64,000 nt of DNA from Pelagibius sp. CAU 1746. GTDB lineage: Bacteria; Pseudomonadota; Alphaproteobacteria; Kiloniellales; Kiloniellaceae. The DNA lies in the NCBI RefSeq assembly GCF_039839785.1, contig NZ_JBDOQT010000001.1:1364001-1428000 (forward strand), in the 5' to 3' direction. A program made the position numbers and the translations under genes. The notes under the pieces were generated by a model. That model did not search any database and was not told the DNA's origin. It worked only from the letters and a program-made list of their open reading frames with translations. Positions 39,361-58,808 of the stretch are shown one piece after another; within the stretch, counting starts at the first letter, position 1; every line of letters begins with the position of its first letter.

Positions 39361-39801
39361 CTACCAGCTCCCGGTGTTCTCCATGGAGGCCCAGGGCTCC
39401 TGCGGAGGCAGGGCGTCGCCTTCCTGCAGCAGTTCGACGGAGATGCCGTCGGGCGAGCGCACGAAGGCCATGTAGCCGTCGCGCGGCGGGCGGTTGATGG
39501 TGACGCCGGAATCCATCAGGTGCTGGCAGGTGGCGTAGATGTCGTCGACCCGGTAGGCCAGGTGGCCGAAGTTGCGCCCGCCGCCGTAGTCCTCCGGGTC
39601 CCAGTTGTAGGTCAGCTCGACCAGCGGCGCCTTGTCCTGCTTGGCGCGCTCGACGTCTTTCGACGCGGCGAGAAAGACCAGGGTGAAGCGGCCCTTGTCG
39701 TTCTCGATGCGGCGGACCTCCTGCAGGCCCAGCTTGTTGCAGTAGAAGTCGAGGGACTCGTCGAGGTCCTTCACGCGGACCATGGTGTGGAGGTATCGCA
39801 T
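39361..39801 (-). CDS. gloA: lactoylglutathione lyase (glyoxalase I), VOC superfamily
   Basis: 146-aa metalloenzyme detoxifying methylglyoxal with glutathione. N-terminus [19 protein letters not shown] contains the first metal-ligand His; [27 protein letters not shown] gives the second Glu and second His; [18 protein letters not shown] carries the last Glu. The compact length (no plant-type insertions) indicates the Ni/Co-type bacterial enzyme. Preceded by an inverted-repeat element. No close gene on the same strand. Confidence 0.93.
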
Positions 39802-39885: not shown

Positions 39886-41796
39886 CTAAAACCCGAACAT
39901 GTGGTCGAAGGAGAAGGCCTTCTCGCCGTTCATCAGGCCGTGGTAGCCGAAGAGGCGGCAGGTCATGTCGCGGATGATCACGTAGCCGGCCGGGCCGGCC
40001 TTCCTCATGTCGGCGGCGGAGAAGAAGTCCGCCGGCTTCCACAAGAGGGAGCCGCCGCAGGCGATCCGCACCTCGTGCTCGGCGAGTTGCTGGCCGTCCC
40101 GGTCGTAGAGCATCAGGTGGGTCTCGCTCTTGGCGTGCCAGGGTGTCGAGGCCGGGTAGATCAGGTGGCAGACGGGCTCGTAGGGCTCGGGGCCGAAGGA
40201 GAGGAAGAGGCGGGTCGAGAGGCCCGGCGCGCGCCCGGCATAGGACTGCGGTTCGCTCTTGTAGGTCAGCACCGCGTTGAAGACGTGGGCGCCGAAGGAG
40301 GTCTCGGCCACGTGTCCTGATGCTTTGTCCTCGTAGCGGAAGAGGCCGTGCAGCCAGCCGTCGGCCTCGCCGCCCTCGGCGAAGTCGTAGACCAGTTCCA
40401 TGTGGCCCCAGTCGGTATCGGCGCCATCCACGAGATCGTCGATATCGACCAGCGTGGCGTGGTTGCGCGGCAGCTTGCCCAGCGACCTGCCGCCGATCTC
40501 CTTGCCCTCGGGGTCGTAGGCGTAGAGTGCCAGGGGCAGGTTGGCCTGGCAGGTCGACATGGGCGTCGGCAGGGCCAGCGAGCGGAAGCGCCCGCGCGGC
40601 AGGATCGGCGCCGGCAGGATGAAGCCCTTGCCCAGCAGGTTGGAAAGCTCGGGGATGCGCGGATCGGGCTTGAGGTCGACGCGCTCCACGTTGGCGTGGG
40701 CGATGCGCCGGCGCGGCGGGGTCATGGCGCCGTTGGCCAGCACCTCGTAGCGCGGGCGCACGAAGTGCTTGCCCGCCTGCACCTCGATCTGCTGCGGCCA
40801 GCGCGCCGCGGGCAGCAGCTCGGCGGTGTCGATGGCCAGGGTGCCGAAGGGCGGGATCTCGCGGTCCAGCCAGGAAATCTCCGCCTCGCCCATGAGGTTC
40901 AGGCCGACGCTGCCGGCGGGCACCGGCGCGGGGTGGCTGTTCTGCACCCACAGCAGCACCTTCTCGTCGTCCTTGGGCGCCGGCAGGCCGCCATAGAGGT
41001 CGGCGGGCCAGGAGTTGGCGTCGTGGGTGCAGGACAGCACCTCGTCGCCATCGCCGTAGGTGTCGAGGGCGTACTTGACGATGTCGTGCCCGGCGATCCC
41101 GCAGACGTGCAGGAAGAGGCTGCCGCAGAAGTCGCCGAGGCCGAACCGTTCCCGCACGTCTTTCGAGTCGATCACCACGCTGGCGCCGGCGCCCGGCAGC
41201 GGGTCGCTCCACTCGGCCAGCGGCCTGCCGTTCTCGTCCATCAGGCAGCACCAGGCACTCGGCGCCTTGGCGCCGTAGCCCGACCAGTAGTTGGCGGTGG
41301 CCAGGCGCGTGTGGTGGCCGCCGCCCTCGCGGAAGAACACCAGGTTGGTGGCGAAGTTCAGGCTGTCCAGGTAGTTGCGGGTGTTGGTCAGCATGGCCTC
41401 GGGCAGGCGCAGCGCGTCCAGGCTCACCACCTCCGCATCCTTGGGCAGCAGATGGCGGATGTGGTCGATCAGGCGCCCGGCATCGAAGGCGGTGACGAAG
41501 ACCTTGGGGGCGGAAGAGCCCGGAAGGTCGGTGACCGGCTGGGCCTGGCGGCCCAGGATCTCGACACCGATGTCTTCCAGGTCCTGCACATAGACCGCGG
41601 CGATGTCGAGGCCGGAGAGGTCGTAGATCTCGGCGAAGGCCTTGGCGTAGCCCAGCGGGTCGTAGACCGCCACGGGCCCCGAGCCCAAGTCCCGCAGCAG
41701 CGCCGCCGCCTCGCGCGCGGCCAGGGGATGGCCGATGGCCTTGAAGAAGGCGTTGCCGCCCTTGGCGTTGCTGAAAGTCTCGATCTTGAGGGCCAT
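39886..41796 (-). CDS. large repeat-containing protein of unknown function
   Basis: 636-aa protein with no family I can name. The first ~170 residues look like a Rossmann-type domain (SGPVAVYDPLGYAKAFAEIYDLSG, DAEVVSLDALRLPEAML). The remainder holds at least four beta-rich modules sharing the pattern hydrophobic-D/E-x-G-(12-15)-(V/L)xID-xx-(D/E)-(L/V). Examples are MDENGRPLAEW...VVIDSKDV, WLDREIPPFGTLAIDTAELL, YDPEGKEIGG...VDIDDLV and YDRDGQQLAE.... Begins CGAGAGAACC then ATG. Third gene of the 43.6-39.9 kb run after an ELM1-like gene and a 2OG oxygenase. No signal peptide. Confidence 0.7.
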   Translation of the reverse strand: MALKIETFSNAKGGNAFFKAIGHPLAAREAAALLRDLGSGPVAVYDPLGYAKAFAEIYDLSGLDIAAVYVQDLEDIGVEILGRQAQPVTDLPGSSAPKVFVTAFDAGRLIDHIRHLLPKDAEVVSLDALRLPEAMLTNTRNYLDSLNFATNLVFFREGGGHHTRLATANYWSGYGAKAPSAWCCLMDENGRPLAEWSDPLPGAGASVVIDSKDVRERFGLGDFCGSLFLHVCGIAGHDIVKYALDTYGDGDEVLSCTHDANSWPADLYGGLPAPKDDEKVLLWVQNSHPAPVPAGSVGLNLMGEAEISWLDREIPPFGTLAIDTAELLPAARWPQQIEVQAGKHFVRPRYEVLANGAMTPPRRRIAHANVERVDLKPDPRIPELSNLLGKGFILPAPILPRGRFRSLALPTPMSTCQANLPLALYAYDPEGKEIGGRSLGKLPRNHATLVDIDDLVDGADTDWGHMELVYDFAEGGEADGWLHGLFRYEDKASGHVAETSFGAHVFNAVLTYKSEPQSYAGRAPGLSTRLFLSFGPEPYEPVCHLIYPASTPWHAKSETHLMLYDRDGQQLAEHEVRIACGGSLLWKPADFFSAADMRKAGPAGYVIIRDMTCRLFGYHGLMNGEKAFSFDHMFGF

Positions 41797-41831
41797 GGTT
41801 CTCTCGGGGCGTACGTGAGGGGGGGGCGAGC

Positions 41832-42491
41832 CTAGGCGCCGAAGCGCAGCAGCTTCTTGGTCAGGGCGGAAAAGGCGTGGCGTTTGAGTTCTCTTTTCAG
41901 CACGCCGTCGTCGGTCAGCCAGTTGAGCTGGATGGAGCGGCGCTGGCCGATGAAGGGCTTGTGGCCGTGCCAGGCTTCCGGCGAGCAGCGGAAGGCGACC
42001 AGGGTGCCGGCTTCGGGCGGCACCTCGGCTGCGTAGTCTTCCAGGTCGTCGGGGCCGTTCAGCATGCGCAGGCGCCCGCCGTCGGATTCCCACGCGCTGT
42101 TCAGGTAGATGAGGGCGGTGACCAGCTTGGTCTTGGAATCCGTGTGGATGGCGCCGTCCTTGGCGCGCGACTGGCCGCGCAGGGTGATCATGGTGGGCCG
42201 TCCGGCCAGATCGATGCCGAACTTGGCCTGGAAGGCGGCGGTCACCGCCGGGCCTTGCAATTCGGCCAGCAAGTCCGTGAAGGCCGGGCCGCATTTCAGG
42301 CTGCTCGCCGGGAAGCTGCCGCCGCTGGTGATCCGCGGGAAGTCGCGTTCAACCGCGGGCAGGGCTTCGCGCTTCAGGAATCCGGGGAGGATGAGGAAGT
42401 CGAAGGGCGCGCGCTGCAGCGGCGCCGCCTCGAAGCGGGCCATGTCGAGGCGCGGGGAGGTCGGGACGGTTTCGGCGGTAAGGCTCGACAA
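41832..42491 (-). CDS. 2-oxoglutarate/Fe(II)-dependent oxygenase
   Basis: 219-aa enzyme with a double-stranded beta-helix pattern. HxD motif in GAIHTDSKTKLVTALIYLN near residue 117 and distal His in RCSPEAWHGHKPFIGQRRSIQLNW, with the Arg following for 2-oxoglutarate. LNSAWESDGGRLRML is the typical insert before the facial triad's third ligand. Substrate is unknown; a protein or glycan hydroxylase is plausible. Start at TTG 42491; an ATG at 42443 (MARFEAAP) would give 203 aa. Located between the ELM1-like gene (110 bp gap) and the repeat protein (35 bp gap). Confidence 0.85.
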   Translation of the reverse strand: MSSLTAETVPTSPRLDMARFEAAPLQRAPFDFLILPGFLKREALPAVERDFPRITSGGSFPASSLKCGPAFTDLLAELQGPAVTAAFQAKFGIDLAGRPTMITLRGQSRAKDGAIHTDSKTKLVTALIYLNSAWESDGGRLRMLNGPDDLEDYAAEVPPEAGTLVAFRCSPEAWHGHKPFIGQRRSIQLNWLTDDGVLKRELKRHAFSALTKKLLRFGA

Positions 42492-42601
42492 GCGGCGGAT
42501 TCCCCGGATTCGGCGGTCGACGGGTCTGTCTGCAGACTTATTTATAGGTGGGACCGGGAAAGATCAAATGAGCCAGATCAAGCCGTTCGGCCGGCGTCCG
42601 C

Positions 42602-43627
42602 TCATCCGGTCGCGGCGAGCCGCGCCCGGAGGCGCCGGCGGATCTCGTCGGCGACGCGGTGGGTCTCGTCCAGCGGCGTGTAGGACCATTGCTCCAGGGC
42701 GCCGGTGAAGGGGCGGGTGATCCCGGCCGCCTGCATGGCTTGGTGGAAGCGGCGGAACTTGGCCGAACCGCCCTCCAGCTGGACGATGTGCACCGGTTTG
42801 CCGGTGCTGGCCGACTCCGAGACCATGTTGACCGAGTCGCCGGTGCAGACGATGGCGTCGGCCAGGCCCAGCATGCCGAAATAGGGGTTCTCGCCGTTGC
42901 CGTCCCAGATGTGGGCCGGCAGGCCCTCCAGGCCGCGGCGCAGGATCTCCTCGTTGCGCGCGCCGGTGCGCCGCGAGGGGGTGACCATCAGGCCGACGCC
43001 TTCCTCGCGCACCAGGCGGGCGAGCTGTCCGGTCAGCTTGGTCATCAGGTCCGCGGTCATGCGGAAGACCTTGTTGTTGCCGCCGATCAGCACGGCGATG
43101 CGGCGCGCCGGCAGGTGGGCATAGAGCGGCTCGAAGTGCTCGGCGGCGGCGGCCAGGCGTTCGGCGGTGATCCGGCCCAGGGCGCCGCGCGTGGTCAGTA
43201 CGTTCTCCGCGCGCAGGCGATCATGCTCCGGCGTGACGATGAGGTCGAAGGCGGCGGGATCGATGGCCGGGTTCTGCACCTGCACGGTGAAGGTCCGCCC
43301 GCCGCTCAGGCGCTTCATGTCGCGGGTCAGGGGCACGGTCTGGCGGCCGCTGGCGATCCACAGGTCCGGCCAGGGCGGGCTCAGGCTGTCGCCCTTGGGC
43401 CCCAGGGTCCCGAGGGGCGCCTTGAAGGGCTTGCGCAGCAGGGCCGCGGGCATCCAGCGCCAGGGCTTGCCGACGGAGACGCGCTTGACCAGCGGAACGC
43501 AGCCCATGGCCTCGGCCAGGCCGAGGCACTGGATCTCCATGCCGGCCTTGCCGTCGGTCACCACCCAGCAGGTGAGGTCGTGCAGGCTCTGCGATGCGGG
43601 GGGGTCGGAACTCTCGAGGCGGGTCAT
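42602..43627 (-). CDS. mitochondrial-fission ELM1-like protein (DUF1022)
   Basis: 341-aa protein with the ELM1 signature: CWVVTDGKAGMEIQCLGLAEAMG near residue 18, PDLWIASGRQTVP, VLIGGNNKVFRMT near 170, and GMLGLADAIVCTGDSVNMVSESASTGKPVHI near 250. The latter resembles the nucleotide-sugar loop of GT-B glycosyltransferases. ELM1 proteins act in plant mitochondrial fission; the alphaproteobacterial proteins are undescribed, and a glycosyltransferase-like role is inferred. First gene of the cassette. ATG is clear and diverges from the Lrp gene. Confidence 0.82.
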   Translation of the reverse strand: MTRLESSDPPASQSLHDLTCWVVTDGKAGMEIQCLGLAEAMGCVPLVKRVSVGKPWRWMPAALLRKPFKAPLGTLGPKGDSLSPPWPDLWIASGRQTVPLTRDMKRLSGGRTFTVQVQNPAIDPAAFDLIVTPEHDRLRAENVLTTRGALGRITAERLAAAAEHFEPLYAHLPARRIAVLIGGNNKVFRMTADLMTKLTGQLARLVREEGVGLMVTPSRRTGARNEEILRRGLEGLPAHIWDGNGENPYFGMLGLADAIVCTGDSVNMVSESASTGKPVHIVQLEGGSAKFRRFHQAMQAAGITRPFTGALEQWSYTPLDETHRVADEIRRRLRARLAATG

Positions 43628-43830
43628 GGCGGCGGACTATGATATTGCCTCCCGCCCGGTGCAAGACCGAAGCGCGTCCCCTTCCGCCGCCGGCGCCCCG
43701 GTGAAGAAGCTTGCGCCCGGAGGTTTTGCACAGGCCTCGGGGCTTGAACCGAAGGGGCGGCCGGGTAATATTGTTACTCGGCGGCCGCGCAGACGGGCGC
43801 GATCTTTTCTTTGCGTTACCGAGGATGCCC

Positions 43831-44331
43831 ATGCGGCGGGTCAAATTGGACCGAATCGACCTGCAGATCCTGCAGGACCTCCAGGAAGACGGACGGATCA
43901 CCAACGTGGAGCTGGCGCGGCGCGCCGGCATCTCGGCGCCGCCCTGCCTCCGGCGCGTGCGCGCCCTGGAGGAATCCGGCTTCATCAAGGGCTATCACGC
44001 CGACCTGGACGCCGAGGCGCTGGGCTTCGAGGTGACCTTCTTCGCGCTGGTCGGCCTGGACAGCCAGTCGGAAACGGTGCTGAACGCCTTCGAGACCCTG
44101 GCCGGGAGCTGGCCGGAGGTGCGCGAGTGCCACATGGCGCGCGGGCCCGACGACTTCGTGCTGCGCCTGGTGGCGCGCAACACGGCGCACGAGAACGAGT
44201 TGACCCAGCGCCTCACCTCCGCCCCGCACGTGGTGACGGTGAAGACCATACAGGTGATCCGCACCGCCAAGTCGACGCCGGGCGTGCCCATCGACATCGC
44301 CCAGGGCGCCGAACCGGCCAGCCAGGACTGA
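43831..44331 (+). CDS. Lrp/AsnC-family transcriptional regulator
   Basis: 166-aa leucine-responsive type regulator. Winged-helix LDRIDLQILQDLQEDGRITNVELARRAG and GISAPPCLRRVRALEESGFI, then the RAM domain (FEVTFFALVGLDSQSE, VRECHMARGPDDFVLRLVA, VTVKTIQVIRTAKSTPGVPI). Of two adjacent ATGs (43825, 43831), the second has GAGG at a proper 6-nt distance. Divergent from the ELM1-like cassette and 70 bp before a GNAT gene; whether it regulates either is not known. Confidence 0.9.
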   Translation: MRRVKLDRIDLQILQDLQEDGRITNVELARRAGISAPPCLRRVRALEESGFIKGYHADLDAEALGFEVTFFALVGLDSQSETVLNAFETLAGSWPEVRECHMARGPDDFVLRLVARNTAHENELTQRLTSAPHVVTVKTIQVIRTAKSTPGVPIDIAQGAEPASQD

Positions 44332-44961: not shown

Positions 44962-45438
44962 TCAGACGTACTGGACCTTGAGGATCTCGTAAGCCTTGGA
45001 GCCGGCGGGGGTCATCACCTCGACGGAATCGCCGACTTCCTTGCCGATCAGCGCGCGCGCCAGGGGCGCGGTGATGGCCAGGCGGCCTTCCTTCACGTCG
45101 GCTTCCAGCTCCCCCACCAGTTGGTAGGCGGCTTCCGCGTCGGTGTCCTCGTCGACCAGGGTGACGGTGGCTCCGAACTTCACGGTCTTGCCGTCCAGGC
45201 TGGCGACGTCGATCACCTCAGCGCGGGCGATCTTGTCCTCCAGCTCGGCGACGCGGCCCTCGATGAAGCTCTGGCGCTCGCGGGCGGCATGGTACTCCGC
45301 ATTTTCCGAGAGATCGCCGTGCTCGCGCGCTTCGGCAATAGCCCGAATCACTTCCGGCCGCGCCGTCGTCTTCAGATAGCGCAACTCTTCTTCAAGGCGG
45401 ACAAACCCGCCTGCAGTCATAGGTACCTTATCGCTCAT
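44962..45438 (-). CDS. greA: transcription elongation factor GreA
   Basis: 158-aa cleavage-stimulating factor. N-terminal coiled coil ([44 protein letters not shown]), with the conserved acidic D...E pair at its tip, and C-terminal FKBP-like domain ([31 protein letters not shown]). Downstream of carB on the minus strand, a common alphaproteobacterial order. The canonical GreA; the Gre protein at 3969-4469 is its paralogue. Confidence 0.95.
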
Positions 45439-45516: not shown

Positions 45517-50044
<4,528 letters not shown>

Positions 50045-58732: not shown

Positions 58733-58808
58733 GGGCCTGTAGTTCAGCGGTTAGAACCCGCCGCTCATAACGGCGTTGTCGCAGGTTCGAATCCTGCCGG
58801 GCCCACCA
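58733..58808 (+). tRNA. tRNA with CAU anticodon, probably tRNA-Ile2
   Basis: Complete cloverleaf: acceptor GGGCCTG/CGGGCCC, D arm GTTC-AGCGGTTA-GAAC, anticodon stem CGCCG/CGGCG with loop CTCATAA, variable TTGTC, T stem GCAGG/CCTGC with TTCGAAT, encoded CCA. The 8-nt D loop and GGGCC acceptor fit the lysidine-modified Ile tRNA (CAU) of alphaproteobacteria better than elongator Met. Requires TilS. Charging identity is inferred. Confidence 0.85.

Follow-up and report, generated by a model that had tools for sequence, protein, structure and literature searches.

A recurrent alphaproteobacterial cassette of an ELM1-family protein, a PolD-like oxygenase and an undescribed multidomain protein, with a possible role at the lipopolysaccharide inner core

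ELM1 is best known as a mitochondrial fission factor of plants. In the bacterial literature that we searched, the role demonstrated for a member of this family is that of KdoT (A1S_2903), the KdoIII transferase of Acinetobacter baumannii; no other was found. KdoT, labelled ELM1-like, transfers Kdo onto Kdo2-lipid IVA in vitro, Arg180 of its SRRT motif is important as judged from mutants, and the protein depends in cells on a second one, GnaT, for a reason that is left unsettled (PMC12856342). According to the same source, a homologue from the alphaproteobacterium Rickettsia rickettsii works in place of KdoT in a kdoT mutant, where it restores the core and, only partly, the membrane barrier. 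Predicted outer-core glycosyltransferases of Acinetobacter also include ELM1-family proteins (PMC4172580), and five GtrOC proteins belong to the family, whose bacterial function is called unknown in PMC10327509. Amongst 2-oxoglutarate (2OG) enzymes, PolD of the polyoxin-type pathways is proposed, together with PolK, to cleave the eight-carbon octosyl acid (PMC5365060), while the Kdo-3-hydroxylase KdoO offers a 2OG-enzyme precedent at the inner core itself (PMC8533242).

We analyzed a stretch of 64,000 nucleotides from Pelagibius sp. CAU 1746 (the window), in which an earlier note had proposed a cassette of three minus-strand genes with gaps of 110 and 35 bp. The coordinates bear this out: an ELM1-family protein of 341 residues (42602..43627) is followed by a 2OG-Fe(II) oxygenase of 219 residues with a TTG start (41832..42491) and by a protein of 636 residues (39886..41796), referred to here as REP. 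Upstream lie a divergent gene for an Lrp-type regulator (43711..44331, plus strand), which recurs upstream of ELM1 elsewhere, and a greA-like (44962..45438) and a carB-like gene (45517..48792), both on the minus strand and part of the conserved surroundings; these three names come from reading the sequence. No sigma-70 promoter was predicted around the cassette, and one terminator-like site was found there against a mean of 2.2 in shuffled sequence.

The assignment of the first protein to the ELM1 family holds with a wide margin (PF06258, 376.7 bits at a cut-off of 27, E 9.5e-113), and together with an SRRT motif at residues 218-221 (42965..42976, minus strand) it leads us to propose a KdoT-like glycosyltransferase. 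In an alignment of 34 of the 64 REP-linked ELM1 sequences at hand, the second arginine of the motif, R220, is invariant and R219 nearly so; SRRT is kept in 31 of the 34 and replaced by SFRT in the other three. R220 would be the equivalent of KdoT R180 as judged by motif order, the two protein sequences not having been aligned. SRRT is likewise present in all 20 ELM1 proteins taken from REP-less genomes, which were hand-picked among ELM1 matches, so that the presence of ELM1 in them is uninformative. The genome also encodes a second ELM1, which sits in a cluster containing an ABC exporter, an FkbM methyltransferase and a further 2OG-oxygenase-like protein, the last scoring 25.3 bits at a cut-off of 27. 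While ELM1 family and motif are common to KdoT and the protein in the window, the latter stands in an operon-like cassette with an oxygenase and REP, and its donor and acceptor are putative.

The second protein is a 2OG-Fe(II) oxygenase, as had been noted (PF13640, 44.6 bits at a cut-off of 27, E 3e-11), and its HTD...H facial triad is real: H116 and D118 of the HTD motif (42138..42146, minus strand) and the third iron ligand H175 (41967..41969, minus strand) are invariant in 37 aligned sequences, comprising that of the window, 35 out of 39 linked homologues and one further sequence (L026). Equally invariant is R184 (41940..41942, minus strand), nine residues past H175, presumably the arginine that holds the 2-oxoglutarate carboxylate, as in PHD2-type enzymes. 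By profile, 9blq (3.5e-16) and 9ei6 (1.7e-12) come closest among solved chains, the next match being a HIF-type prolyl hydroxylase at 4.7e-5. A Foldseek search of the PDB with the structure model (pLDDT 94.0) returned 9blq (PolD) and 9ei6/9ei7 (PasI) at TM scores of 0.62-0.72 by query length, ahead of 46 other listed matches at 0.41-0.59; the title of 9ei7 names octosyl-acid phosphate as a ligand. By modelled fold and by sequence, the oxygenase is closest to PolD and PasI among solved structures, with which it has in common the HxD...H motif and a flanking segment. Identity to these enzymes is 18-24%, and octosyl acid phosphate is a candidate substrate. The protein hydroxylases EGLN/PHD2, Tpa1 and bacterial P4H have the superfamily fold and iron site in common with the oxygenase, but match it more weakly than PolD and PasI do. 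The chemistry of KdoO, a 2OG oxygenase acting on inner-core Kdo, would fit; KdoO nevertheless belongs to a different Pfam family, PF11004, which is absent from the oxygenase's Pfam matches at E<=1 (PF13640 and PF13661 only). A PF11004 scan of the genome itself gave no match, and its positive control likewise matched nowhere. Literature searches for 9BLQ, 9EI6 or YhhC yielded nothing relevant judging by titles.

REP is an undescribed family in the libraries searched: no Pfam family matches it at E<=1, no NCBIfam family lies above the cut-off, and its profile matches no PDB sequence. The 26 aligned relatives are 52-85% identical to REP over the full length and show many invariant columns, with invariant H, D, R, W and Y dense across most of the protein. 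In the AlphaFold model (mean pLDDT 88.6) a predicted Rossmann-like alpha/beta N-domain (residues 1-145, 41362..41796, minus strand), in which conservation is lowest, precedes four successive beta-rich units. These span residues 146-636 (39889..41361, minus strand) and are predicted to be about four beta-sandwich domains, with approximate limits of 146-250, 251-356, 357-492 and 493-636 in our reading of the model's DSSP string. A loop at residues 506-525 (40222..40281, minus strand) is of low confidence (pLDDT <50) and yet conserved or invariant at N507, E515-Y519, P524 and G525. By eye, no signal sequence is seen in REP. The earlier note had read REP as four or more beta-rich modules sharing a common pattern. 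The model agrees with the four units, whereas the common sequence pattern could not be demonstrated: in an hhalign comparison of five segments the best of ten pairs, M3-M4, reached a probability of 28% over 17 columns and the other nine 0.1-7.6%, and a shared sequence repeat was rejected on this weak profile-profile similarity. D/E-x-G and V-x-ID are visible in REP by eye. Among the best 50 matches listed for each library, Foldseek hits in the PDB were mostly chains of beta-sandwich domains, and hits both there and in a viral fold library were partial, with TM scores by REP length of <=0.14. Macroglobulins, complement C3, factor XIII and Bap are, like REP, strings of beta-sandwich domains, but REP differs from them in this low score, in its alpha/beta N-domain and in showing no detectable sequence relation.

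The REP profile matched 86 of the 385 alphaproteobacterial genomes sampled and 4 of 388 across the phylum, the 4 belonging to the same class and the class make-up of the 388 being unstated. From the 86 genomes we cut 81 REP loci, that is the window and 80 others, many of them truncated by contig ends; one genome with a remnant, two in which the gene was matched in pieces, one affected by contig ends and one other were left out. ELM1 lies in the stretch at 64 of the 81 loci (at one of them downstream and on the opposite strand), the oxygenase at 40 and both at 35, and the order ELM1-oxygenase-REP recurs among relatives, so the conserved co-occurrence anticipated for the three genes exists. Together with the full-length conservation of REP, this recurrent order goes beyond what chance would give. 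The marine strains Pelagibius marinus and P. litoralis are among the carriers of the cassette. A 48.9-bit oxygenase match in an overlapping frame at one further locus was excluded from the count. At three loci, one of them in a REP-less genome, the oxygenase adjoins ELM1 with no REP there. Counted by genome, ELM1 is present in 85 of the 86 with REP and also in 228 of the 299 without; REP is present in 57 of the 66 with the oxygenase, unlinked to it in 14 of the 57, and the oxygenase is missing from 29 of the 86 genomes with REP. The odds ratio is 63 for oxygenase and REP, compared with 4-5 for oxygenase and either ELM1 or waaA. In seven genomes from related groups no oxygenase was detected, in a scan that produced no positive match anywhere. 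As the oxygenase tracks REP even where the two are unlinked, some tie between them is likely.

The frequent adjacency of the three genes in alphaproteobacteria points to a common task in building the sugar coat of the outer membrane, and not to the decoration of REP by one of the enzymes. We tentatively propose, at somewhat less than even confidence, that the cassette is a lipopolysaccharide (LPS) inner-core module. Working on the cytosolic side of the inner membrane, the ELM1-like protein would add Kdo, or else a related sugar acid of eight carbons, to the core; the oxygenase would be an optional PolD-like enzyme that hydroxylates or oxidizes this sugar acid, paralleling the conversion of Kdo to Ko by KdoO; and REP, a cytosolic protein of Rossmann and beta-sandwich domains, would act in the same step as an enzyme or carrier handling the sugar-bearing intermediate. 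We infer the sugar, the oxygenase substrate and this role of REP, while gene content, synteny, co-distribution and motifs are observed and the folds predicted. Since the oxygenase depends on REP more heavily than the reverse, it would act on the product of REP, or on REP. The gene waaA, whose product makes the Kdo-lipid acceptor, is found in 81 of the 86 REP genomes, the remaining five being drafts of 110-420 contigs and 70-99% completeness, in 63 of the 66 oxygenase genomes, and in the genome of the window (PF04413, 1.5e-59) on a contig other than that of the cassette. Against the LPS reading count the position of the cassette outside any LPS locus of its own genome, a search that found no fold or family link of REP to glycan chemistry, 26 genomes with ELM1 where waaA was not found and 38 with waaA where ELM1 is missing, and three genomes from a single genus, all 99-100% complete, that have a cassette-type oxygenase and neither ELM1 nor REP. 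To these are added the weak association of REP with waaA alone (p 0.004, uncorrected for kinship) and the SRRS that replaces SRRT in the genome's second ELM1. The parallel between the eight-carbon acid of PolD and Kdo could be a coincidence, and that the oxygenase follows REP more strongly than ELM1 or waaA would fit a modification of REP as well.

A role of REP as glycan sensor or scaffold, binding core intermediates or organizing ELM1 and the oxygenase without being an enzyme, is somewhat unlikely, though its predicted chain of beta-sandwich domains and the dependence of KdoT on GnaT would agree with this; the density of invariant H, D, R, W and Y seems high for a scaffold. Apart from the role of REP, such a function is compatible with the LPS reading.

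Unlikely, too, is that the genes are neighbors by descent with unrelated jobs, retained from an ancestral block of the form carB-greA-lrp-ELM1-(oxygenase)-REP-trxB-lysR. The block recurs whole, trxB follows ELM1 in 15 of the 20 REP-less genomes picked for their ELM1, and at nine REP loci, several truncated by contig ends, block genes and both partners are absent. The unlinked co-occurrence of oxygenase and REP and the presence of ELM1 in nearly every REP genome nonetheless argue for more than shared descent, as do seven loci at which ELM1 lies near REP and block genes were not found (four from one family, some cut by contig ends). Where a wide gap separates ELM1 from REP (L091, L093, L097, L099, L102, L103 and L120), no recurrent family was seen by eye in between.

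The mechanism originally put forward, in which the oxygenase hydroxylates REP, with or without subsequent glycosylation by ELM1, is improbable: it would agree with the tracking of REP by the oxygenase, with phylogenetically independent pairs (4.9 of 7 with REP and 0.0 against, median p 0.06), with the fold common to protein prolyl hydroxylases and with prolines in the strictly conserved low-confidence loop, but REP looks alike in the 29 genomes without the oxygenase (2 of 636 positions track it in 55 versus 26 REPs, differing as expected and both in the least conserved domain, in a test that would miss a residue conserved for another reason), three nearly complete genomes carry the oxygenase without REP, the nearest solved relatives have a sugar-acid nucleoside as their actual or proposed substrate, and the glycosylation step is opposed by the Kdo transferase activity of KdoT, the kept SRRT motif and the many REP-less genomes with ELM1.

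An ELM1 protein, a PolD-like oxygenase and a REP without known family together provide a handle on ELM1 function in alphaproteobacteria, to which mitochondria are related, and the gene set suggests a testable LPS sugar modification in this class. Taken further, it might reflect an undescribed inner-core pathway, in which ELM1/KdoT adds Kdo, REP processes or presents it and the PolD-type oxygenase hydroxylates or cleaves the chain to give a new or convergent acidic core sugar, though we regard this fuller version as quite unlikely. REP by itself represents a large and strongly conserved family, carried by more than a fifth of the sampled genomes of its class and missing from the libraries searched.

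The three genes described in the earlier note were borne out: an ELM1 gene (42602-43627), a 2OG-Fe(II) oxygenase gene with an HTD...H motif (41832-42491) and the gene of a 636-residue protein, here called REP (39886-41796), lie in this order on the minus strand, 110 and 35 bp apart. The ELM1 protein matches PF06258 (9.5e-113) and the oxygenase PF13640 (3e-11), while REP matched no Pfam family at E ≤ 1, came close to the cut-off of no NCBIfam family and, as a profile, found no solved chain at E ≤ 10. Immediately 3' of REP lies a small minus-strand gene that reads from its sequence as glyoxalase-like (39361-39801), and ARAGORN and Rfam together detected a single RNA gene in the window, a plus-strand tRNA-Met (CAT) at 58733-58808.

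Scanning named genome contigs with single-sequence patterns yielded 24 REP loci; REP or a piece of it occurs in 22 of the 61 genomes of the order, and the nearest relative of our organism (genome size 4.66 Mb) among the scanned named genomes is Pelagibius marinus, with 95% identity in REP. An alignment of the window REP with 26 others (52-85% identical to it) contains many invariant residues, which cluster in the beta-domains and extend to the final residue. The AlphaFold model made with these 27 sequences (mean pLDDT 88.6, pTM 0.89) predicts an alpha/beta N-domain followed by about four beta-sandwich units, and the loop 506-525 is strictly conserved although model confidence is low there. Support for the repeated sequence pattern claimed earlier for REP is weak, the best of ten segment pairs compared reaching 28% probability over 17 columns. 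Foldseek searches of the PDB gave partial matches only, mostly to chains with beta-sandwich domains (TM by REP length ≤0.14 among the matches listed), and among those listed from viral models nothing was closer.

With the profile built from this alignment, 86 of the 385 genomes sampled from the class, spread over 61 of 277 genera, were positive for REP (G039 with a remnant), as were 4 of 388 genomes in a phylum sample, all from the same class. In a sister genus, two genomes (stretches L022 and L023) showed REP only as C-terminal remnants adjoining an ELM1 gene, and genus g2 of the organism's own family includes a full-length REP without oxygenase (genome G036), remnants beside ELM1 (G038, G039) and a genome with no REP match (G037). 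A contig labelled Hydrogenophilales, by name not alphaproteobacterial, carries an ELM1-REP pair at 51% and 60% identity (stretch L037), reflecting either transfer or misbinning.

Across the 385 genomes, ELM1 was found in 313, waaA in 325 and the oxygenase in 66. ELM1 accompanies REP in 85 genomes and both are missing from 71; the sole REP genome without ELM1 is 70% complete. REP co-occurs with waaA in 81 genomes and lacks it in 5. The oxygenase shares 57 genomes with REP and occurs without REP in 9, with neither in 290, an association of Fisher p 1.5e-36 when kinship is ignored; in a kinship-aware analysis based on an 84-row ELM1 tree, 4.9 of 7 independent pairs had the oxygenase going with REP and 0 had it going the opposite way (median p 0.06). 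The distribution of the oxygenase on a quickly built tree of 81 REPs requires a minimum of 13 gains or losses, and well-supported branches force 6 of these. Of the 57 shared genomes, 14 carry the oxygenase away from REP (41-58% identical to that of the window). Some of these 14 may be paralogues. When 73 oxygenases are placed on a quick tree, a number of unlinked ones from REP genomes nest within linked ones and so look like moved orthologues. The cassette-type oxygenases of three genomes of one genus (G064, G199, G297; stretches L174, L178, L180) also nest among linked ones and look like moved orthologues; ELM1 and REP were detected in none of the three.

Of 81 REP loci (the window and 80 cut-out stretches), 64 have ELM1 within the stretch, 40 have the oxygenase and 35 have both. 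The commonest order, with gene names read by us from the sequences, is carB, greA, lrp (opposite strand), ELM1, oxygenase (optional), REP, trxB and lysR. No flanking gene of this block was found at 7 loci with ELM1 (4 from one family, some ending at contig ends), at 9 others with neither ELM1 nor oxygenase (several ending at contig ends) and at 2 with the oxygenase only. In 20 REP-less genomes chosen for having ELM1, trxB follows ELM1 in 15, and upstream are usually matches to lrp, greA or carB. Since REP-less ELM1s keep these neighbours, the site is old, with REP and oxygenase often absent while ELM1 stays. In a single case, picked for close coordinates, roughly 12 kb separate ELM1-REP from a group of lpxK, waaA and lipid A acyltransferase genes (L148 and L197, G298:C149).

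The earlier note had proposed that the oxygenase hydroxylates REP and that ELM1 then glycosylates it, so that REP should need the oxygenase and ELM1 should need REP. Neither dependence holds generally, as 29 of the 86 REP genomes lack the oxygenase at the threshold used and ELM1 is present in 228 of the 299 REP-less genomes. The oxygenase may still act on REP itself, as the tie between the two would be expected in that case also. A target residue in REP should tolerate substitution in genomes that lack the oxygenase. When 55 REPs from oxygenase-bearing genomes are set against 26 from genomes free of it, just two positions, G77 and D127, vary as expected (0 in reverse), both within the poorly conserved N-domain.

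One source calls the bacterial function of the ELM1 family unknown (PMC10327509), and another counts ELM1-family proteins among predicted outer-core glycosyltransferases of Acinetobacter (PMC4172580). For KdoT, the Acinetobacter ELM1-family Kdo transferase, a third reports that the SRRT motif matters, with R180 weighing more than R179, and that a Rickettsia rickettsii homologue restored the core of a kdoT mutant and, in part, its barrier (PMC12856342). By place in this motif, R220 of the window ELM1 corresponds to R180; it is invariant, and R219 nearly so, across 34 aligned REP-linked ELM1s, 31 of which carry SRRT and 3 SFRT. SRRT is also present in all 20 ELM1s from the chosen REP-less genomes. 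The window ELM1 would likewise transfer Kdo. A second ELM1 of the same genome, 35% identical over 269 residues and with SRRS replacing SRRT, lies in a cluster (L195:85-7643, G000:C1 about 2280584-2288142) with an ABC exporter, an FkbM methyltransferase, another 2OG-oxygenase-like protein (Pfam score below cut-off) and a GT8-like/methyltransferase-like protein (weak matches).

The oxygenase, with a predicted fold of mean pLDDT 94.0, has PolD (9blq) and PasI (9ei6, 9ei7) as its nearest solved structures by both profile and fold among the matches listed, the title of 9ei7 naming bound octosyl-acid phosphate; protein prolyl hydroxylases (Tpa1, PHD2, bacterial P4H) rank after them with poorer E-values. 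Kdo, like octosyl acid, is an eight-carbon sugar acid. Cleavage of octosyl acid is proposed for PolD with PolK in PMC5365060, and KdoO is described in PMC8533242 as a 2OG enzyme that hydroxylates Kdo, although its Pfam family is not matched by the cassette oxygenase. Given these nearest structures, the shared eight-carbon acid and the KdoO precedent, a sugar acid would be the likelier substrate, and the oxygenase would act on the same sugar as ELM1. We infer that REP works together with both enzymes, its likeliest, putative role being the handling of a core intermediate.
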